Origin: an uncultured Methylococcaceae bacterium
GTDB taxonomy: Bacteria > Pseudomonadota > Gammaproteobacteria > Methylococcales > Methylomonadaceae
Length of the DNA stretch: 54,450 nucleotides
NCBI GenBank assembly: GCA_903928685.1
Contig: CAIYRS010000016.1
Coordinates: 1-54,450 of the forward strand
Direction: 5' to 3'
A program made the position numbers and the translations under genes. The notes beneath the pieces were generated by a model. It did no database searches. It was given only the letters and a program-made list of their open reading frames with translations, and was not told where the DNA came from. Below are positions 21,586 through 52,732 of the stretch, in pieces (the first letter of the stretch is position 1; the number at the start of each line of letters is the position of its first letter).

Positions 21586-22542
21586 ATGGACGGGCATTTT
21601 TTAACTGACATTGAAATTAAACAATTCAAATGCTTTACCGATTTTAAAGCGGCGGGGTTTAAACGGGTTAATTTGATTGGCGGGAAGAATAATGTGGGTA
21701 AGACGGCTTTTATGGAGGCTTGTTATATCAATGTGCATTCTACTAGTATCAATTGCTTGGTAACGGCTATTGTTATCATTAAATTTATGCGCGAGTGCTT
21801 AAGTTTTCTCCAAAAAATAGCTGAATACAAAACATTACTGAATGCCACAAGATGTTATGCGACCAACTCAAATTTAAGAAATTGCTCGTATCTGATTCAA
21901 GAACACGATGCCTTAAAGGAATACCAATTCAGCATTGATGGGCAAGCCAAAACTATTAACGACAACGAATTAACGATTATTATCGAACGTATTAAAAATA
22001 TTGAATTCATAGACAACTTTGGATGGAATGATTATGAATTAATTGGCGCCTACCAATCCATCCAAAAAGCCGATCAAGAATCAGAACTGGACAGTTTTAT
22101 CCAAGAATTCGACAGCAGCATCGCCAACTTCAAAGTCATAGGCGACAAACCCCAATGTAAAACCAATGGCGAATACCGCGACATCAGCGAATTCGGCGAC
22201 GGCTTAAAACACTATATTTCCATCATCTGCGCGCTTTATGCTTGCGAGAACGGCTATCTGTTCATCGACGAAATCGACAACGGCATCCACTACAGCCAGC
22301 TTGACCGCCTTTGGGAAATCATCCTTACGCTTTCCAAAAAAACCAATTGCCAAGTGTTTGCCAGCACCCATTCTAAGGAAATGCTGGAATCCTTTGCGCG
22401 AGTGGCAACTAAGCTGGATGAACAAGACATTAGCCACACCACATTAGTAAAAAATCAGCAACAAGAACTCAAAGCGATTACCCGTGACTACAAAATGCTT
22501 TTGGACAGCATTGAACAAGAGCGCGAGGTGCGGGGATGGTAA
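21586..22542 (+). CDS. OLD-like AAA/ABC ATPase, pair 1
   Basis: This 318-residue ATPase of the SMC/OLD type starts with the family phrase LTDIEIKQFKCFTDFKAAGF. Motifs: Walker A GGKNNVGKTAF, signature-like FGDGLKHYISI, Walker B GYLFIDEIDNGIHYS, H-switch VFASTHSKEML. It overlaps the next gene by seven bases (ATGGTAA). Such ATPases paired with a small TOPRIM-like partner are a recurring anti-phage layout (OLD, PARIS, Gabija relatives). Two further pairs of this kind lie at 46513-48247 and 48358-49963. The defence role is inferred, not shown. Confidence 0.82.
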   Translation: MDGHFLTDIEIKQFKCFTDFKAAGFKRVNLIGGKNNVGKTAFMEACYINVHSTSINCLVTAIVIIKFMRECLSFLQKIAEYKTLLNATRCYATNSNLRNCSYLIQEHDALKEYQFSIDGQAKTINDNELTIIIERIKNIEFIDNFGWNDYELIGAYQSIQKADQESELDSFIQEFDSSIANFKVIGDKPQCKTNGEYRDISEFGDGLKHYISIICALYACENGYLFIDEIDNGIHYSQLDRLWEIILTLSKKTNCQVFASTHSKEMLESFARVATKLDEQDISHTTLVKNQQQELKAITRDYKMLLDSIEQEREVRGW

Positions 22543-23096
22543 AAGTAGCGATTGTTTGTGAGGGGAAAAATGACCGGGATTTTTTGCAAGCCCTTATCAG
22601 TCATTTAGGCTTAGCCGTTGTTAATCGGATAATTTTTTATATCTTCCGTTGCAAAAGTGAATTGCTTAATCCTGACCACGACAGATACCTCGATTTAAAG
22701 TTAGAAATCGAAGCAGGGCAAATCACCAAAACTTTATTCGTGGTTGATGCCGATAACGTTAAAAGCGATGCCATAAAAGGGGGTTATGAAAACACCCAAG
22801 AGGCGTTGGATTTTCTGATGGCGAAACTGAACATCACCACCATCAGCCAAAGCCATATCTTCTGTGACCCAGAGACAAAGTTGGGATATTTAGAATCCTT
22901 TATACTTTCTACCATTTCTGAAGCCGAAAAAAACTGCATCGAACGGTTTTTAGATTGCTCGCAATTCCATTCTAAAGAAAGCCACAAAGACATCATTAAC
23001 AAACTTTACAACATCGCTTATCCACCCCCACATTACAACTTCAGCCACCCAAATTTTGAGCCGCTAAAAGCTGTGCTTACGCAGCTTTTTACTTAA
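22536..23096 (+). CDS. TOPRIM-like partner of the ATPase, pair 1 (DUF3226-like)
   Basis: The 186-residue protein has the TOPRIM core: VKVAIVCEGKNDRDFLQAL (conserved Glu), TLFVVDADNVKSD (Asp-x-Asp) and a later KLGYLESFIL with Glu. The layout resembles DUF3226. It is likely the nuclease or effector subunit, regulated by the ATPase it overlaps by seven bases. A ribosome site (GAGG) lies within the end of the ATPase gene. No other domain is visible. Confidence 0.75.
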   Translation: MVKVAIVCEGKNDRDFLQALISHLGLAVVNRIIFYIFRCKSELLNPDHDRYLDLKLEIEAGQITKTLFVVDADNVKSDAIKGGYENTQEALDFLMAKLNITTISQSHIFCDPETKLGYLESFILSTISEAEKNCIERFLDCSQFHSKESHKDIINKLYNIAYPPPHYNFSHPNFEPLKAVLTQLFT

Positions 23097-43293: not shown

Positions 43294-43786
43294 AGATTAG
43301 GCAGTTAAGGTTAGGATGTTCGGTTAAAGTTTTTAGGCCATTGCCCGTTTTCACCAGCACAGGCTGTGCGCCAGCGGCAATGCCAGCTTGTAAATCGCGG
43401 TAAGAATCGCCAACCATCCACGTTGCAGATAAGTCGATTTGATGCTCGGTGGCACATTGCAGCAACAAACCTGGCTTAGGTTTGCGGCATTCACAAGTGC
43501 TGCCCGGGCCATGCGGGCAATAATAAATCGCGCTGATATTGCCGCCATGCTCAATCGCCATACGCTGCATTTTGGCATGGATTTGCGCCAAGTCGGCTTC
43601 GGTAAACATGCCCCGCGCCAAACCGGATTGGTTGGTAATGACTGCGACTTGGTAGCCGTGCTGATTGAGCAAAGCAATGGCTTCTAAACTGCCAGCAAGC
43701 GGCTGCCATTCATCCGGCGATTTGATGAAATCGTGGGATTCTTGGTTGATGACGCCGTCGCGGTCTAGGAGGATAAATTTAGACAT
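43247..43786 (-). CDS. gmhB: D-glycero-beta-D-manno-heptose 1,7-bisphosphate 7-phosphatase
   Basis: This 179-residue HAD phosphatase makes the heptose precursor of LPS core. Motif I LLDRDGVINQES, motif II VITNQSGLARG, zinc site CPHGPGSTCECRKPKPG (three Cys and a His) and MVGDSYRDLQAGIAAG are all present. Its place after glyS is conserved in gammaproteobacteria, but here a toxin-antitoxin pair separates the two. Confidence 0.95.
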   Translation of the reverse strand: MSKFILLDRDGVINQESHDFIKSPDEWQPLAGSLEAIALLNQHGYQVAVITNQSGLARGMFTEADLAQIHAKMQRMAIEHGGNISAIYYCPHGPGSTCECRKPKPGLLLQCATEHQIDLSATWMVGDSYRDLQAGIAAGAQPVLVKTGNGLKTLTEHPNLNCLIFDTLYDATQYLISRQ

Positions 43787-43802
43787 AGTTATTTTTCAAG
43801 GC

Positions 43803-44188
43803 TTACCAAATTGTAGCCACTGGATATTGGGCAATGAAATGATCTGGCGTCAGCATGGTTAATTCATGTTCAATGGCTTGGCAAACTAACATCCTATCGA
43901 ACGGATCTCGGTGATGGCTAAGTAATCGTCCCAGTTGCAATACCGCTGTGTGGTTCAGAGGCAAAATATCAATACGATGTTGCTCACATTGCTGGTTAAT
44001 AAATATCTCAGGTTGGTCAGGCAAAGCCAGTTTTCCTATGCCATGTTTAACCAACATTTCCCAAATAGATACCACACTCAGAGCGATGCTGTTATCTGCA
44101 TTTTGAAAAATGTCTTTCGCTTTTGCTGTCAATTCTGGGGCATCGGTGGTCAGCCAAATAAAAGCACAGGTATCCAATAAAACCCGCA

Positions 44189-44189
<1 letters not shown>
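43803..44189 (-). CDS. vapC: VapC-type PIN toxin
   Basis: From the ATG at 44189 the protein has 128 residues. The PIN nuclease acids are in LLDTCAFIWL (Asp), SVVSIWEMLVK (Glu) and SHHRDPFDRMLVCQA (two Asp). It is an RNase of the VapC group, neutralised by the gene before it, whose TGA overlaps the ATG by one base (a GTG three bases earlier is possible). It stands between glyS and gmhB, 16 bases before gmhB. Confidence 0.92.
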
Positions 44190-46485
<2,296 letters not shown>

Positions 46486-46512
46486 AGGGCGACCTTTTTT
46501 AATTAATTGTTG

Positions 46513-47061
46513 CTACAGGTTTTGTAACGTGGTTTTGTCGGCGTTATATGGGTTTGCTTTCAGATGCTCAATCCATTTGGCTAATAGATTGATACCGCTA
46601 GCATTATGTGATTTCAAATCCCGAAATAATTTTTTGAATCGAGGGTCATTTTTACTAATTTCTCCCTTCATGTTGACAAGCTCTTCTAGCGTTGTCGGTA
46701 AGTCATAAGTATCTAAAGAAATATTCACTTGTTGAGCTTCATTAAGAATCCATTTTTCAATCGGTTCGTGGAAAATTAAATAGTGGTTTCTATTGGGGCG
46801 AATATGGAGTTCTAAATTATTTTTGGATACCAACAATTCATAATCATTGGTATGTTCCAGTTTCCGTTTATCCCTATCCACAATGCCAACAGCGAAATTG
46901 TCGTTCAATCGCGTCCTGATTAATTTAACAACATCATTGCAATTGTGCTGGTGATTGTACCCTTGAGAACCTTTAAACTTTTGTGGTGGAACAATCGTTT
47001 CAACCAAATTGGTATCTAAGTAACACTCTGGGATGATGTGGTAATTAATATTCTTAATCAT
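46513..47061 (-). CDS. Small TOPRIM-like partner, pair 2
   Basis: The 182-residue protein has a TOPRIM-like core: YHIIPECYLDTNLVETIVPP (Glu) and NFAVGIVDRDKRKLEH (Asp-x-Asp). A predicted helix KLIRTRLNDN lies between, then HEPIEKWILNEAQQ. It overlaps the ATPase at 47054 by eight bases. It ends 27 bases before glyS. It is A+T-richer than glyS. I take it as the effector or nuclease subunit of the pair, by analogy only. Confidence 0.68.
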   Translation of the reverse strand: MIKNINYHIIPECYLDTNLVETIVPPQKFKGSQGYNHQHNCNDVVKLIRTRLNDNFAVGIVDRDKRKLEHTNDYELLVSKNNLELHIRPNRNHYLIFHEPIEKWILNEAQQVNISLDTYDLPTTLEELVNMKGEISKNDPRFKKLFRDLKSHNASGINLLAKWIEHLKANPYNADKTTLQNL

Positions 47062-48247
47062 CCGTAAATAATTCGTGGTTGAAAAATAAATCTATACCGT
47101 ATTGGTAAACATCGTTTACCTCTTCGTCAGTCAACCGTCTAATCACAGTTTCGCCATTTTTAAAATTGGCGATGAAAATAGCTACGTCATTGCGCTCATA
47201 TTCCAAGAAATCATTTAATACATAAGGACTGTGAGTGGCGATGAAAAATTGATTGGTTTCAGAGTCGATAATATCCTGGGTGATTTGCCGTATGTAAGGC
47301 GGGAAACAGTGGGCTTCGGGTTCTTCGAAAAGCAGAATAGAGTTTTTATTAGAGCCGATTGCTGTTTTGAAAAATATTATCCTTTGTAACGTATCGGCTA
47401 TAGAGCTGTAAGGAAAAGACAACATTGAGTTACCATCTTTCAATGTTTTCATTATTCTCAGTGTATTGCTTGTTTTATCAAGCAGAAGATTTAAACCGTA
47501 TGCTGAAAATAATTTTGCTAAATCTTTTTCAATTTTATTTTCTTGAATTGCATCAAGTAAATTGATTCCACTAGGCGGTATTAGATAAAAACGTTCGATT
47601 ATTTTATTGTTGATTTGTAATTCATGGGGGAACTTATAAATCTTAACTTTCGGATTTGGGTAATATTCCTTCACAATGTCATTACGTAAGGCCATTAATT
47701 CACTTAGCTGTCGATCTATGGATTCAAGAGCGCGTTTATCTGCAGAGTCATGATCTAAACCGGTAATCCTGTTTTTTACGCCTTCACCTTTCTCATTGAA
47801 ATAGATTTCGGCAAATTCCTTATCTTCCGGCAAATATGAATTGTCTGACTTTAAATTAAGCTGATTATCTAATTTAATGGATATTTCATTATTATCTGCA
47901 TTCAAATCTGTCCTAATTTTAAAACGAACAAACGGCGATTGACCCGGCTCATCATAAAACCTAGCAGTGCATTCATCGTTATCAGTTTCAATGCAAATTT
48001 GGTCATTTTGGAAATTACTGTCAAAAAACAGCTCAACAAAAGATTCCACTCTGACAAAATGAGTTAATTTTTTGTCAGGGTTATATTTGAAATAAGGCAA
48101 ACTAAACAACCCAATCGCCTCCAAAATATTAGACTTCCCCACATTCGGCTTACCAATCAGCAAATTAATACGCTTGCAATCGCTTAAGGTCACATCCTTA
48201 AGTGATTTGAAATTAGTAATCCGAACCGAATTGAAGAAATTTGCCAT
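47054..48247 (-). CDS. OLD-like AAA/ABC ATPase, pair 2
   Basis: The 397-residue protein begins FFNSVRITNFKSLKDVTLSD. Walker A is LLIGKPNVGKSNILEA, the signature region FPYSSIADTLQRIIFF, Walker B SILLFEEPEAHCFPPY and the H-switch FFIATHSPYVLNDF. The insert between the motifs has a DUF-like helical domain. It is coupled to the TOPRIM-like gene downstream. It lies between glyQ and glyS with pair 3, in the same direction, so it may be carried by the glyQS promoter; 110 bases separate it from pair 3. Confidence 0.85.
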   Translation of the reverse strand: MANFFNSVRITNFKSLKDVTLSDCKRINLLIGKPNVGKSNILEAIGLFSLPYFKYNPDKKLTHFVRVESFVELFFDSNFQNDQICIETDNDECTARFYDEPGQSPFVRFKIRTDLNADNNEISIKLDNQLNLKSDNSYLPEDKEFAEIYFNEKGEGVKNRITGLDHDSADKRALESIDRQLSELMALRNDIVKEYYPNPKVKIYKFPHELQINNKIIERFYLIPPSGINLLDAIQENKIEKDLAKLFSAYGLNLLLDKTSNTLRIMKTLKDGNSMLSFPYSSIADTLQRIIFFKTAIGSNKNSILLFEEPEAHCFPPYIRQITQDIIDSETNQFFIATHSPYVLNDFLEYERNDVAIFIANFKNGETVIRRLTDEEVNDVYQYGIDLFFNHELFTDD

Positions 48248-48357
48248 GTTATTTTGCTACCGATTCGCTAAGCGCAGAAAACCAGCAGCTTTGAATAAAG
48301 TTGCTGTAGTGATGGGTTTGATGGCAAGTTACTGATGGTGTTATCGACATAATCACG

Positions 48358-48879
48358 TTAGTTATTCAGGCGTTTCAATTCGTTGCAAGCATGATGCAAG
48401 GAAGAAGGAGCATTGTCAGGCAAGCTGTAAATGCAGACTTTTCTTTTTAAATCTTTTGCAAACTTCGAAGGTTCTGCTTGCTGATATAGCCTTTTATAGT
48501 CTTGTGTTTCATCAATGGCATTTCCATCTATAAAATGAAACCAAGATTCAATGTTTCTTGAGGGTGAAAACAACAAGATTTTTTCGGTAGTATTCGGAGA
48601 ATAGGTTTTTCTTAAACTAGCCAGATGATTTTTTGTGTCATCATCAATCATTACGACCAAAATGTAACTTAATCTGTTTTTACTATGAAAAGCTTTTAGC
48701 TCTTTTTCGTAGTTTTCTTTTACAAATACTGCACCAGAACCTGTACTTCTGCCTTTAGGGTTATGTCTAGGAATAATATTTCGGGAATTGAATCCCATTA
48801 ATTCCAAATACTTTCTAGCAAAATGAAAGTGAGTAGTGTCTTCGCACAATATGCAAACTTGCGCGTTTCTATTGCTCAT
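48358..48879 (-). CDS. Small TOPRIM-like partner, pair 3
   Basis: From the ATG at 48879 (MSNRNAQVCILCED; AGAGG site) it has 173 residues; an earlier ATG at 48927 is less likely. Core features are CILCEDTTHFHFARKYLELMG (Glu), LVVMIDDDTKNH (Asp-rich strand end) and SPSRNIESWFHFIDG. It overlaps the ATPase by 11 bases. The layout resembles DUF4276 or RloB-type partners of AAA ATPases. It shares no obvious sequence with the partners of pairs 1 and 2. Confidence 0.7.
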   Translation of the reverse strand: MSNRNAQVCILCEDTTHFHFARKYLELMGFNSRNIIPRHNPKGRSTGSGAVFVKENYEKELKAFHSKNRLSYILVVMIDDDTKNHLASLRKTYSPNTTEKILLFSPSRNIESWFHFIDGNAIDETQDYKRLYQQAEPSKFAKDLKRKVCIYSLPDNAPSSLHHACNELKRLNN

Positions 48880-49963
48880 AAATCCAGCCTCTTTCCACCA
48901 AATCCGCAATTGAAAGGCCAGTTTCATTTTCGGGGCTAATTTTTTGAAGTCTTGTTAGGTTATTTTCTTTGCTGAACCAATAGCCTGAATCATTAGCTAA
49001 CATATTAATGATTTGGGGATGGTGAGAAATCAATATGGCTTGCAAGTTACGCTCTACACATTGGTCGTAAAGCACATTAAACCAAGGTTGGATTTCTGGT
49101 AAAGCTAAAAAATTTTCCGGTTCGTCAATGCAAATGATCGAGTTTTCTGGCGCACAATAAATCAAAGCATAAAGGGCGATTAATATTTTTTGACCATCTG
49201 AAAGTTCATCAAAGTAATAAGTAACAATTTTTTTCTTGTCATTTGAATCTTCAAAATCTACTTGTAAAACTTTAACTTGCCCTGCTTGTTCAATATTAAA
49301 AATGTCAAATCTGGGCAAAATATCACGCATTGCCTTTTCAAAAACTGACACTTCTCTTCTGTATTTTTCGTTCAGATGAGCAAACCATTCCGCAAAATTT
49401 GAAAAGTCTGTTTGAACTTCTGAATTGGCTTTGTGGATGGTGGATTGCATTTCATAGGTTCTAATTCGAGCTATGAAAACAGAACGTAAATATTGTAAAA
49501 AAACTAAATTAGGAAAAAAACGGGTTATGCTTGATCGTGAATTATCAAGCTCATATTCATGTCCTTTTATTAAATCGAGAGTCTTTCCATCTTTTGACTG
49601 GAAAGCTGGCTCGTTTTTATAGCCTAAGAATTCTTCTTTTAAGCTAAATTCATGAGTTAGATTATCTAGTTCAATAATTAATCTATATTTAAAAACGGTA
49701 TCTTTTATTTCAGCATCAAATTCAAACCGAACTTCGGTTTTCTCTAGTGGATTAGGCGTTAACCAACGAGGTATATCTTTGTAGTCAAAAACATTGTCTA
49801 TTTTTTCCTCTCCAACAATGACTCGCTTTAACTTCGCCAAAACCTCAAAAACCGTAGATTTCCCCGAGCCATTCGCGCCCAAAAAAAGACTAATATCCTG
49901 ATCAAAGTTAATTTCAAAATTAACCAAGCATTTGTAATTATGGACATACAGTCTTTTTAACAT
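48869..49963 (-). CDS. ABC-type ATPase (AAA_21-like), pair 3
   Basis: This 364-residue protein has the classic ATP site: LFLGANGSGKSTVFEVL, signature ELSDGQKILIALYAL, Walker B SIICIDEPENFLALPE and H-loop AILISHHPQIINML. It starts MLKRLYVHNYKCLVNFEINF. The start codon is only 12 bases past the end of glyQ, which is a near-seamless insertion. The signature is more canonical than in pairs 1 and 2, so the three pairs are likely independent acquisitions. Confidence 0.87.
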   Translation of the reverse strand: MLKRLYVHNYKCLVNFEINFDQDISLFLGANGSGKSTVFEVLAKLKRVIVGEEKIDNVFDYKDIPRWLTPNPLEKTEVRFEFDAEIKDTVFKYRLIIELDNLTHEFSLKEEFLGYKNEPAFQSKDGKTLDLIKGHEYELDNSRSSITRFFPNLVFLQYLRSVFIARIRTYEMQSTIHKANSEVQTDFSNFAEWFAHLNEKYRREVSVFEKAMRDILPRFDIFNIEQAGQVKVLQVDFEDSNDKKKIVTYYFDELSDGQKILIALYALIYCAPENSIICIDEPENFLALPEIQPWFNVLYDQCVERNLQAILISHHPQIINMLANDSGYWFSKENNLTRLQKISPENETGLSIADLVERGWIYEQ

Positions 49964-49975
49964 GGCAGATAACCC

Positions 49976-50884
49976 TTAGCTGGTTTGGCACATCGGAAAA
50001 CCCAAAGACTCACGCCGCACATAATAAGCTTCAGCAACCGAACGAGACAAAGTCCGCACCCGCAAGATATAACGTTGGCGTTCGGTGACGGAAATGGCGT
50101 GGCGGGCATCGAGCAGGTTGAAGGTGTGCGAGGCTTTTAAGACCATTTCGTAGGCGGGCAGCGGCAGACCTAACTCAATCAGCTTGACGCATTCTTGCTC
50201 GTAAGTGTCGAAACATTGGAACAAAAACGGCACGTTGGCGTGGTCGAAGTTGAACGATGACATTTCCACTTCGTTTTGGTGGAACACGTCGCCGTAGGTA
50301 ACAATGCCATGTGGCGTGCGTGTCCAGACCAAGTCGTACACGCTTTTTACACCTTGCAAATACATCGCCAAGCGTTCCAAACCGTAGGTGATTTCACCGG
50401 TGACTGGACGGCATTCCAAGCCGCCGACTTGTTGGAAGTAAGTAAATTGCGTAACTTCCATGCCGTTCAGCCAGACTTCCCAGCCTAAGCCCCATGCGCC
50501 TAGCGTGGGCGATTCCCAGTTGTCTTCGACGAAACGGATGTCGTGTTCCAGTAAATCAAAACCCAGCGCGGTCAACGAACCTAAATATAGTTCTTGGATG
50601 TTATCAGGCGACGGTTTGAGCATGACTTGGTATTGGTAGTAATGCTGCAAACGGTTGGGGTTTTCGCCAAAACGCCCGTCGGTAGGGCGGCGCGATGGCT
50701 GTACGTAGGCGGCGTTCCAAGGCTCAGGGCCGATGGCGCGTAAGAAGGTGGCAGGATGGAAAGTACCTGCGCCGACTTCTTGATCTAAGGGTTGCAATAA
50801 GATGCAGCCTTGGTTTGACCAATAGGCTTGCAGCGCAAGGATAAGTCCTTGAAAGGTAGATAAATCGTTGTTTAGACTCGACAC
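49976..50884 (-). CDS. glyQ: Glycyl-tRNA synthetase alpha subunit
   Basis: The 302-residue catalytic subunit contains [78 protein letters not shown] and the class II motif [13 protein letters not shown]. Start is GTG. It is the first gene of the operon. Its natural neighbour glyS is now 3.5 kb away behind two ATPase pairs. Confidence 0.97.
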
Positions 50885-50992
50885 GGTGGGCTTTGTTGGG
50901 TTGAGTTATAAAGGGCGAGATTATACCGTAAAACCCTAGGCTTGGCGGGCGGCTGCGGTATTTTCAGGCATAGGGTTTAAATCAGTAGCGCT

Positions 50993-51457
50993 TTAATGTC
51001 CTGAATGCTTCTTACTGGGTTCAGTCATTTCGCTTCTACGCAGGTTATAGGCTTCCGCGTTTTTTCCGGTGAAGAAGTTGCTGTGTTCATCCAATTGAGT
51101 AAGGGCATTTTCACCGACAAAATAATGGCGGATGGTGGCCTCTTTTTTAGCAATTAAATCAATGGTATTGGTTTTTTCGCCCCAATTAAATTTACCTTTT
51201 TCAACAAACTCGCGTTCGGATTTACCGACGAATTGGGTCATCAAGATATAGCTACCGTTACTGTTTAACGCCAACGAGGTTTTAATGCCTTTACAATCGG
51301 CGCAGGGTGTAAAACCGTAATAAACCCCAGGCCAATCGATGCTATTTTCGGCATGATGGGCATCGTGGCTTTCGGGGGCTTCGGCAAAAACCGCCGTGTT
51401 AATTGCAAATAAAGCCAGAACTGCAAGCCGTGTTAGTGATTTTTTTAATATTGGCAT
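50993..51457 (-). CDS. NlpE-like N-terminal domain protein, exported
   Basis: From the ATG at 51457 (AGGTGA site) it has 154 residues with a Sec signal ending NTAVFAEAPE. The core is YYGFTPCADCKGIKTSLAL, the CxxC signature of the copper-resistance lipoprotein NlpE, then YILMTQFVGKSEREFVEKGKF. It has no lipobox, so it should be soluble in the periplasm. His-rich ends (SHDAHHAEN, SKKHSGH) suggest metal binding. The role in envelope or copper stress is by family. Confidence 0.82.
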   Translation of the reverse strand: MPILKKSLTRLAVLALFAINTAVFAEAPESHDAHHAENSIDWPGVYYGFTPCADCKGIKTSLALNSNGSYILMTQFVGKSEREFVEKGKFNWGEKTNTIDLIAKKEATIRHYFVGENALTQLDEHSNFFTGKNAEAYNLRRSEMTEPSKKHSGH

Positions 51458-51529
51458 AGTGTTCACCTGGAGAGGGTTTGTTGGATGAATAAACGATGGG
51501 CTTCCTTGCGTTCAGCCCATCCTACCGCG

Positions 51530-52732
51530 CTATCTATTCTGGGTAATCTTAATAGTTGGATTCATTTTAGGCTGTTGTCCACCTGTTTCTTCTTCTTTTT
51601 CCTCTTCTTTACTGATTGCTTGTAAAGTCAAGCCACCTGCTTCTGTGGGATTTTCAGGGGCGATTGAGCCTAGGCCTTCGCTCAGGTTGATTTTTAATTT
51701 CAAGTTATTGGGCGAATCGGAGTTATGCAAGGCTTCTTCTAAGGTGATTGTGCCTTCTTTAAACAGCCTTAACAGATGGCTATCAAAGGTTTGCATACCG
51801 ATATTTTCAGACTTTTCCATGGCTTCTTTGATGCTGTGCATCTCGCCTTTCAAGATTAAATCCCGAATAAGCTGGGAAGTCAGCAAAATCTCGAACGCCG
51901 CGGCGCGTTTGCCTGTTACCGTCGGCACTAATCGCTGCGAGATGAAGGCTTTCATATTCAAAGATAAATCCAGCAACAACTGGTGACGACGTTCTTCGGG
52001 GAAAAAATTGATGATGCGGTCTAAGGCTTGGTTGGAGTTGTTGGCGTGCAGGGTGGAAATGCACAAATGCCCAGTTTCGGCAAACGCTAAGGCGTGTTCC
52101 ATGGTTTCGCGGGTGCGTATTTCGCCAATTAAGATAACGTCCGGGGCTTGCCGCAAGGTGTTTTTTAGCGCGTCTTCGTAACTTAAGGTATCAACGCCCA
52201 CTTCCCGTTGGTTAACGATGGATTTTTTGTGGGAATGGACATATTCAATCGGGTCTTCAATGGTGATGATATGCCCAGATGAATTGGTATTGCGGTAATC
52301 AATCAAAGCCGCCAGCGAGGTGGATTTACCCGAACCCGTACCGCCAACAAACAAGACCAAGCCGCGCTTTTCCATGACGATGTTTTTTAGGATGATAGGC
52401 AAGCCCAATTTATCGGCATCAGGAATATCCACCTTAATATTCCGTATAACCAAGGCATGGGAGTTGCGCTGCTTAAATATATTTACCCGAAATCGTCCAA
52501 TACCGGGCTCAGAAATAGCCAGATTCATTTCAGGCAAATGCTCAAAGGCCTTGCGCTGGTCTTCATCCATCACTTCATCAGCGATGGCTTTTAACCGCTC
52601 TTTGGTTAAGCGGATGTTTTCAATGGGTTTGAGTACGCCTTGGAATTTTGCGGCAGGTGGCGCATCAGTGGTTAGATAAAGGTCAGAGCCGTCATTGGTG
52701 ACAAGGATTTTTAAGTAATCTTTTAATTCCAT
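51530..52732 (-). CDS. pilU: PilU-type twitching motility ATPase
   Basis: The 400-residue AAA+ secretion ATPase has Walker A FVGGTGSGKSTSLAAL, Asp box IITIEDPIEYVHSHKK, Walker B VILIGEIRTRETMEHAL and His box HLCISTLHANNSNQALDR. NSDSPNNLKLKINLSEG at the end is the PilU-type tail. It assists PilT in retracting type IV pili. The last 40 residues (Glu-rich EEEKEEETGGQQ) are an extra tail. No other pil gene is in the window. Confidence 0.92.
   Translation of the reverse strand: MELKDYLKILVTNDGSDLYLTTDAPPAAKFQGVLKPIENIRLTKERLKAIADEVMDEDQRKAFEHLPEMNLAISEPGIGRFRVNIFKQRNSHALVIRNIKVDIPDADKLGLPIILKNIVMEKRGLVLFVGGTGSGKSTSLAALIDYRNTNSSGHIITIEDPIEYVHSHKKSIVNQREVGVDTLSYEDALKNTLRQAPDVILIGEIRTRETMEHALAFAETGHLCISTLHANNSNQALDRIINFFPEERRHQLLLDLSLNMKAFISQRLVPTVTGKRAAAFEILLTSQLIRDLILKGEMHSIKEAMEKSENIGMQTFDSHLLRLFKEGTITLEEALHNSDSPNNLKLKINLSEGLGSIAPENPTEAGGLTLQAISKEEEKEEETGGQQPKMNPTIKITQNR

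Follow-up and report, generated by a model that had tools for sequence, protein, structure and literature searches.

Organization of the glyQ–glyS interval

The window analysed here (the whole 54,450-nucleotide stretch, contig CAIYRS010000016.1 of an uncultured, methane-eating Methylococcaceae bacterium placed by GTDB in the family Methylomonadaceae) belongs to a genome of 3.38 Mb whose nearest named kin in the species collection are Methylovulum records. On its minus strand it carries glyQ and glyS, the genes for the two subunits of glycyl-tRNA synthetase, separated at positions 46513-49963 by four co-directional genes that form two overlapping pairs, each composed of an ATPase gene and the gene of a small partner protein. 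The order along the minus strand is glyQ, ATPase A, partner A, ATPase B, partner B and glyS, and the individual features are the following:

49976-50884, minus strand: glyQ, glycyl-tRNA synthetase alpha subunit, upstream flank (PF02091, 3.7e-149)
48869-49963, minus strand: ATPase A, 364 residues (AAA_21 2e-21, AAA_15 2.2e-14; PADLOC HEC-01A 1.1e-24)
48358-48879, minus strand: partner A, 173 residues, start ATG at 48879 (conserved E, DxD and RNIESWF; putative metal-dependent nuclease)
48248-48357, minus strand: spacer of 110 bases between the pairs, from partner A to ATPase B
47054-48247, minus strand: ATPase B, 397 residues (AAA_15 1.3e-15; hypervariable at about residues 81-200)
46513-47061, minus strand: partner B, 182 residues (invariant E12, C13, D62 and D64; putative TOPRIM-like nuclease)
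44416-46485, minus strand: glyS, glycyl-tRNA synthetase beta subunit, downstream flank (PF02092, 5.7e-203)

The coordinates and gene order agree with those of a first-pass annotation of the stretch, as do the short junctions of 12 bases between glyQ and ATPase A and of 27 bases between partner B and glyS. The genes overlap by 11 bases in pair A and by 8 bases in pair B, and all four reading frames are kept across many genomes and are therefore not chance open reading frames. No mobility gene and no reverse transcriptase gene is present in the glyQ–glyS interval, in keeping with the proposal of the same annotation that the insertion left no mobile-gene scar. The 110-base spacer shows no significant RNA fold (z -0.67). 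A scan of positions 43500-51600 on both strands by consensus matching, which is weak evidence, returned 10 promoter-like sites (16.2 in shuffles) and 6 terminator-like sites (10.9 in shuffles); both values are lower than expected, so that the sequence gives no argument for separate transcription, and separate strong promoters for the pairs, which would have spoken for transcription independent of glyQ and glyS, find no echo in a promoter excess.

A recurrent cassette slot between glyQ and glyS

The glyQ–glyS interval is a recurrent cassette slot in the Methylomonadaceae. When the positions of both genes were searched in 201 genomes of the order, the matches listed contained 113 pairs on a common contig, 75 of them in the window's family and 38 in other families; the gap was taken as the distance between the Pfam matches, and the window's own genome stands outside these counts. 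Among these listed matches the gap was at most 250 bases in 59/75 family pairs and in 38/38 pairs of other families, which bears out the normal adjacency of the two genes, and it was larger than 700 bases in 15/75 family pairs versus 0/38 outside the family. In one listed family pair (G162; L056, L057) a distance of about 0.6 Mb separates the two genes; near this glyQ are two 114-residue frames, alike in their visible starts and ends, that may be transposase pieces.

The 15 long gaps contain pair A alone (G051, G150, G074), pair B alone (G028, G116, G117, G106, G130, G115, G118), A followed by B as in the window (G078, G108), a BRO-N gene followed by pair B (G188), a UPF0149/SEC-C gene (G184) or a different, third ATPase with a partner of 263 residues (G015). 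The order in the loci seen is glyQ, BRO-N, A, B, UPF0149 and glyS, with no single locus holding all of them. Five kinds of cargo share this one slot, and a strictly random insertion site was rejected.

Searches with the ATPases in 201 genomes of the family (E<=1e-20) matched 17 genomes for ATPase A and 28 for ATPase B. Two of the former (G256, G130) hold a distant relative only, leaving 15 true copies of pair A, all of them at glyQ and/or glyS; in one (G278) a BRO-N gene stands between the glyQ side and the pair, and the contig stops inside the ATPase. Pair B is found at glyQ and/or glyS in 27 of its 28 copies, with glyQ visible upstream in 25, sometimes with other cargo between. Its halves lie on two contigs in G281, the contig start is too close to judge the upstream side in G214, and in G196 the pair precedes glyS with glyQ absent from the 3.8 kb upstream. 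The 28th copy (G216) has its place in the his operon, where a 5' fragment of glyS adjoins it. Taken as a union, pair A or pair B is present in 38/201 genomes, and 163/201 have neither by these searches; this patchy presence does not correspond to that of a set of genes common to all close relatives, the pattern that the first-pass annotation had regarded as speaking against its reading. Among 369 genomes of the class searched with the pair A ATPase at E<=1e-25 only that of the window was matched, and pair A therefore looks narrow in range.

The ATPases and their partners

Both ATPases are of the AAA_15/AAA_21 ABC type with a conserved P-loop, and ATPase A shows the motifs GANGSGKST and ICIDEPE, which we take to be Walker A and Walker B, respectively. 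Among PDB profiles, ATPase B matched the retron Eco8 OLD nuclease best (1.6e-8, across the 112 N-terminal positions) and RecF second best (7.9e-7). The PADLOC matches of the ATPases include HEC-01A, AriA, AbiLi and GajA, those of ATPase B reaching 1.2e-14 for Old and 8e-17 for GajA, and by these profile matches the ATPase domain of ATPase B is related to OLD.

In partner B, E12, C13, D62 and D64 are the only residues invariant across 60 diverse homologues, and in partner A, E15, D81, D83 and RNIESWF are invariant in 13 homologues; the two share a weak likeness around DxD and ExW (hhalign E 0.0007, probability 26%). Neither window partner reaches a Pfam cut-off, partner B being without a family match of its own, and PDB sequence profiles gave no match for either one up to E 10. 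Weak matches were obtained among the kin of partner B to MAD4 (6/60, best 0.001), HEC-01B (2/60, best 0.005), DUF4276 (2/60) and AbiLii (1/60, 0.0065), and among those of partner A to DUF3226 (2/13, best 0.007) and DUF4276 (1/13, 0.022); they are few among many chance-level matches, with unrelated families at similar E-values. The predicted model of partner B (predicted local distance difference test, pLDDT, 94.7; predicted template modelling score, pTM, 0.91) consists of a short strand before E12, two helices, the DxD strand, an extra strand pair and then a strand and a helix, a strand-helix order partly compatible with TOPRIM. Partner A aligned to the OLD TOPRIM set with E and DxD in register, though not significantly (P 0.09, controls 0.21-0.76). 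The E...DxD layout, the order of ATPase then partner and the weak matches of the kin make a TOPRIM-like nuclease, and with it a TOPRIM-like fold of the partners, plausible.

Sequence variation and exchange between alleles

The middle of ATPase B changes fast. Over residues 81-200 the mean pairwise identity of 26 Methylomonadaceae sequences is 0.14-0.28 per 20-residue block with gaps set aside, and 0.02-0.26 with gaps counted as differences, so the dip persists without them; it is 0.48-0.94 over residues 1-80 and 221-397 and 0.35 over residues 201-220. Occupancy in the middle falls to 0.24, because most copies are shorter than that of the window. ATPase A (12 sequences) shows a milder dip, of 0.29-0.48 over residues 41-180.

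Partners are swapped between alleles, giving mosaic loci. Between G106 and G115 glyS is 98% identical, the ATPase B core 85% and partner B 52%; between G118 and G129 the corresponding values are 88%, 77% and 98%, and between the window and G078 they are 94% for glyS, 66% for ATPase A and 41% for partner A. In the 24 host pairs with glyS at 90% or above, the mean identity is 65% for ATPase B (0.52-0.85), and partner B spans 0.45-0.91. This is the pattern that would be expected for a sensor under diversifying pressure with swappable effectors.

Two loci bear on how a cassette may move. In G216 the genes murA-hisG-hisD are followed by pair B and then by a 70-codon frame that starts with about 46 codons of glyS; the ATPase contains a stop, and this copy may therefore be dead. 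Together with the G196 locus described above, it fits a cassette that carries flank pieces when moving.

The his operon as a second slot

Distant relatives of ATPase A (about 29% identity), each with a partner, lie between hisG and hisD in G256, G278 and G180 (a copy with a stop), and the relative in G130 lies outside hisG–hisD, so that three of the four genomes have it nested. In the window's own genome, contig C43 (L214:3917-5751) holds between hisG and hisD an ATPase of 378 residues, the best AAA_21 match of this genome, and a DUF3226 protein of 232 residues (2.5e-48); a relative of this pair occupies the same place in G015, with one extra gene after hisG. The hisG–hisD interval was surveyed in 30 of the 85 genomes matched, on stretches reaching at most 1500 bases upstream. 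Of the 29 informative ones, 16 have hisG no more than 70 bases away, 3 have it at a distance of 249-549 bases, and 10 do not show it within 1500 bases. Longer stretches of these ten revealed hisG in six and did not in four (G048, at a contig end, G146, G168 and G184), where rearrangement may be the cause. Other hisG–hisD gaps contain PIN, HigA-like and BrnT-like small genes, identified by eye (G032, G028, G140, G211; L252, L253, L259, L261); that of L252 has an additional AAA-like frame of 453 residues. Thus, two housekeeping operons, glyQS and his, serve as cassette slots in the Methylomonadaceae.

A small control within the window's genome, on eight other AAA_21 places, did not come out as a simple negative. 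One is the hisG–hisD pair of contig C43, another is an un-nested pair on contig C90 (L215:125-1796; ATPase of 350 residues and DUF3226 partner of 214 residues, 8e-18), and inspection by eye assigns the remaining six to RecF, SMC, SbcC-like, ABC-F and two further AAA proteins. The window has a further pair at 21586-23096 on the plus strand, with an ATPase of 318 residues and a DUF3226-type partner of 186 residues (3.3e-07) overlapping by 7 bases; the preceding gene is on the opposite strand, so this pair is not nested like those of glyQS. At 43803-44404 on the minus strand, between glyS and a HAD phosphatase gene, the window also carries a PIN-domain toxin-like gene with a small antitoxin-like gene upstream. 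In several relatives the HAD gene directly follows glyS, without this PIN pair.

Relatives of pair B in Bacteroidota and in other housekeeping operons

A scan with one genome per species gave at least 330 relatives, of which the best 80 were kept: 17 Methylococcales and 63 others, nearly all Bacteroidota by title. All 17 Methylococcales records among these best 80 have the pair at glyQ and/or glyS, and the partner B gene follows the ATPase in 76/80 loci, the misses being two at contig ends and two real ones (L102, L105). The neighbours of the 63 non-methanotroph loci are counts within the best 80 of 330 and not frequencies. Fifteen have the pair B ATPase at nuoF|nuoG (in L119 nuoG alone is visible, in L161 nuoF alone), and among these nuo loci three Chryseobacterium copies have about 0.9 kb between nuoF and the pair. 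Five are at phoH|purC, among them L102 and L105, which lack the partner gene, and three are close cases at parE|parC (L133 with a further gene), to which two loose Hymenobacter cases can be added. The ATPase lies downstream of purB in two loci and divergent from metG in three, and about half of the 63 show no such recurrent site. A Saprospiraceae metagenome-assembled genome carries two pair B units in tandem (L149:5383-8465), and a record titled Phycisphaerales (L120) has pair B in the nuo operon with a tree position within Bacteroidota, a possible misbinning.

In a tree of 98 sequences, built by a quick method, the 27 glyQS copies form one clade (Shimodaira–Hasegawa-like approximate likelihood ratio test, SH-aLRT, 100), adjoined by a Cytophagales copy (support 86) and surrounded by Bacteroidota. 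One change is needed for glyQS, one for nuo (branch support only 79), one for phoH-purC and three for par (a set that includes L148, where parE alone is visible). On a plain reading, pair B would have been captured once from Bacteroidota and then spread and lost within the family; since the root was not inferred, the direction of this transfer is given conditionally.

Comparison with known defence systems

The window ATPases resemble those of several defence systems, and each of these systems differs from the window pairs in other respects. ATPase B shares with the retron Eco8 effector the N-terminal OLD match given above and a match to NCBIfam retron_eff_Eco8 (8e-17), but the latter scores 61 bits against a cut-off of 250, and unlike the retron the window has its ATPase and effector in separate genes, without a reverse transcriptase gene in the glyQ–glyS interval. 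The separate genes, in the window and in the 76/80 loci, also set the pairs apart from OLD classes 1-3, where ATPase and TOPRIM are in one chain. Both window ATPases match MAD3, and a few partner B kin match MAD4; however, the MAD3 scores (46.6 and 41.7 bits) are far under the curated cut-off of 420 bits, and membership of MADS was rejected. PADLOC HEC-01A is matched by ATPase A (value listed above) and ATPase B (6.4e-16), and on the partner side the HEC-01B values are weak (0.015 for partner A, besides the two partner B kin). Both ATPases match AbiLi models as well, and one partner B relative matches AbiLii. For MAD4, HEC-01B and AbiLii alike, the partner side gives weak matches, among which unrelated families occur at comparable E-values.

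Core-gene-flanked defence hotspots hold variable cargo between conserved genes. The glyQ–glyS slot has the same variable cargo and conserved flanks, but it lies inside a two-gene essential operon; its genes are co-directional, its junctions measure 12 and 27 bases, and the interval is free of mobility genes.

PARIS (AriA/AriB, class 4 OLD) resembles the window pairs in having a separate AAA_15/AAA_21 ATPase gene followed by the gene of a small acidic partner, and both window ATPases match the PADLOC AriA models (4.3e-23 and 4.1e-17). The PARIS partner is, however, a DUF4435-type Toprim, and DUF4435 is absent among the Pfam families listed for the partners (25/29 at E<=0.1 for the 60 partner B sequences; 13/13 at E<=0.5 for the 13 partner A sequences). 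The location also differs, PARIS being found in P2/P4 hotspots and the window pairs in housekeeping operons. The hhalign comparison with DUF4435 was not significant, and membership of PARIS was rejected. Published accounts describe PARIS as a defence system with split ATPase and Toprim genes (PMC10568477, PMC12409363), in which a hexamer of the AriA ATPase holds AriB until a phage protein triggers its release and the dimeric AriB cuts host tRNAs (PMC12409363). Given the shared gene order and ATPase type, a similar release-and-cut logic may apply to the window pairs.

Interpretation of the operon-nested pairs

From the gene structure, the conserved motifs, the patchy presence at one site, the allele mosaicism and the kin in other housekeeping operons, we infer that the pairs are split OLD/PARIS-like abortive-infection modules that live in operons and are exchanged through conserved flanks, a reading to which we give a probability of about 60%. 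In this scenario the ABC-type ATPase, with its fast-changing middle, would be the sensor, and the small acidic partner, probably a metal-dependent nuclease, would be restrained by it. The pairs, without a standout promoter of their own, would be transcribed by read-through as part of the glyQ-glyS message. Sensing of a phage product would free the partner, which would cut nucleic acid and stop growth. Recombination through the conserved genes on either side, needing no recombinase, would bring cassettes in, swap them and remove them.

A more general proposal, which we regard as tentative, is that an operon-dwelling lifestyle is common to such split ATPase/nuclease immune pairs. Their families would have settled repeatedly in glyQ|glyS, nuoF|nuoG, parE|parC, phoH|purC and hisG|hisD, the operon message providing expression and the conserved sequence serving as homology arms; partner B, for whose model no solved or viral structure gave a significant match, would represent a new small-effector family.

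A number of observations weigh against this interpretation. The TOPRIM fold that the first-pass annotation had proposed for the partners found no confirmation in structure and profile comparisons: although the partner B model is confident, Foldseek returned no match at E<=0.001 in PDB or BFVD, the hhalign profile comparisons of the partners with the DUF4435 and OLD TOPRIM sets were none of them significant, and partner B reached P 0.27 against OLD TOPRIM, where unrelated controls gave 0.12-0.93 and two of them (0.12 and 0.13) scored better. The partner A model, from three sequences, is poor (pLDDT 62). As a result of these negative comparisons partner B is called an acidic-site nuclease of uncertain fold, which is a probable assignment. 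The defence-like kinship of the pairs is itself supported, by the match of ATPase B to the retron Eco8 OLD nuclease and by PADLOC matches such as HEC-01A, AriA, AbiLi and GajA. Kin of either ATPase were not found among IMG/VR virus contigs by these scans, and the plasmid and phage matches, which amount to one partial plasmid and one archaeal virus for ATPase B and to four plasmids (22-27% identity) and two records of one phage (29%) for ATPase A, are little for defence genes. With respect to movement, the similarity of the cargo correlates with that of the hosts (Mantel r 0.54, 0/2000 permutations as high), which indicates largely vertical descent with exchanges; the trace in G216 could equally stem from a different kind of event duplicating the start of glyS, and fast drift of an unconstrained linker could also account for the ATPase B middle. 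Concerning the other operons, 34/95 inner branches of the tree are open, and the operon-site counts are descriptive and no measure of enrichment over other conserved gene pairs. Finally, a Bacteroidota sample chosen regardless of score had ATPase B (E<=1e-30) in 9/395 genomes, centre included, and the eight other genomes carry it at varied sites, not mainly inside operons, some merely downstream of metH-, glyA- or miaB-like genes (named by eye).

The location itself could be taken to tie the pairs to glycyl-tRNA synthetase, with the partner cutting or sensing tRNA-Gly or the ATPase monitoring the alpha-beta enzyme. The placement of 15/15 pair A and 27/28 pair B copies at glyQ and/or glyS in the sampled family agrees with such a tie, and so does the cutting of tRNAs by the PARIS effector AriB (PMC12409363). 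The pair B family is also found, however, in operons of nuo, phoH-purC and par genes, the space between hisG and hisD is occupied by other pairs and by toxin-antitoxin-like genes, and 163/201 sampled family genomes have neither pair by these searches. A tRNA-Gly-specific role was rejected as the leading explanation on account of the tRNA-unrelated operons, and we consider the tie quite improbable. The linkage to a tRNA enzyme, which the first-pass annotation found suggestive, is not supported as a telling one. Since operons without a relation to tRNA house this pair family too, a cassette slot is the best reading of the glyQS location. A housekeeping or regulatory role in these operons, such as the assembly of multi-subunit enzymes (glycyl-tRNA synthetase, complex I, topoisomerase IV), would suit the fact that glyQ|glyS, nuoF|nuoG and parE|parC each encode subunits of one enzyme, but phoH|purC and hisG|hisD do not, the genes are missing from most of the sampled genomes that have glyQ and glyS, and the sequences change fast and swap partners; this role seems the least probable of all.

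The pairs could also be selfish toxin-antitoxin-like modules, in which the ATPase restrains a toxic partner and persistence is secured by addiction and by a site where deletion harms the host. The overlapping two-gene units speak for this explanation, and the PIN gene with its small upstream gene after glyS and the PIN and BrnT-like open reading frames at hisG–hisD (by eye) show other toxin-antitoxin-like genes at the same or neighbouring sites. On the other hand, the patchy presence (38/201) would imply frequent loss, and the hypervariable ATPase middles resemble sensor diversification. Such modules are compatible with defence rather than exclusive of it, and as an explanation in their own right we hold them to be unlikely, if less so than the two preceding ones.

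The search for defence genes usually turns to islands, prophages and other mobile parts of genomes, and single pairs within essential operons would be missed where only islands are searched. No description of operon-nested ATPase/nuclease pairs was found in the open-licence full-text literature, which is weak evidence of absence. If split abortive-infection modules do live in operons in this way, the pairs would be expressed with the operon and could be moved between strains by ordinary recombination. Interrupted essential operons would then be a place to look for new immune genes, with several candidate families at hand, one of them with a hypervariable presumed sensor and swapped partners. 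The kin inside several essential operons suggest that bacteria have a little-noticed means of housing immune genes and exchanging them.

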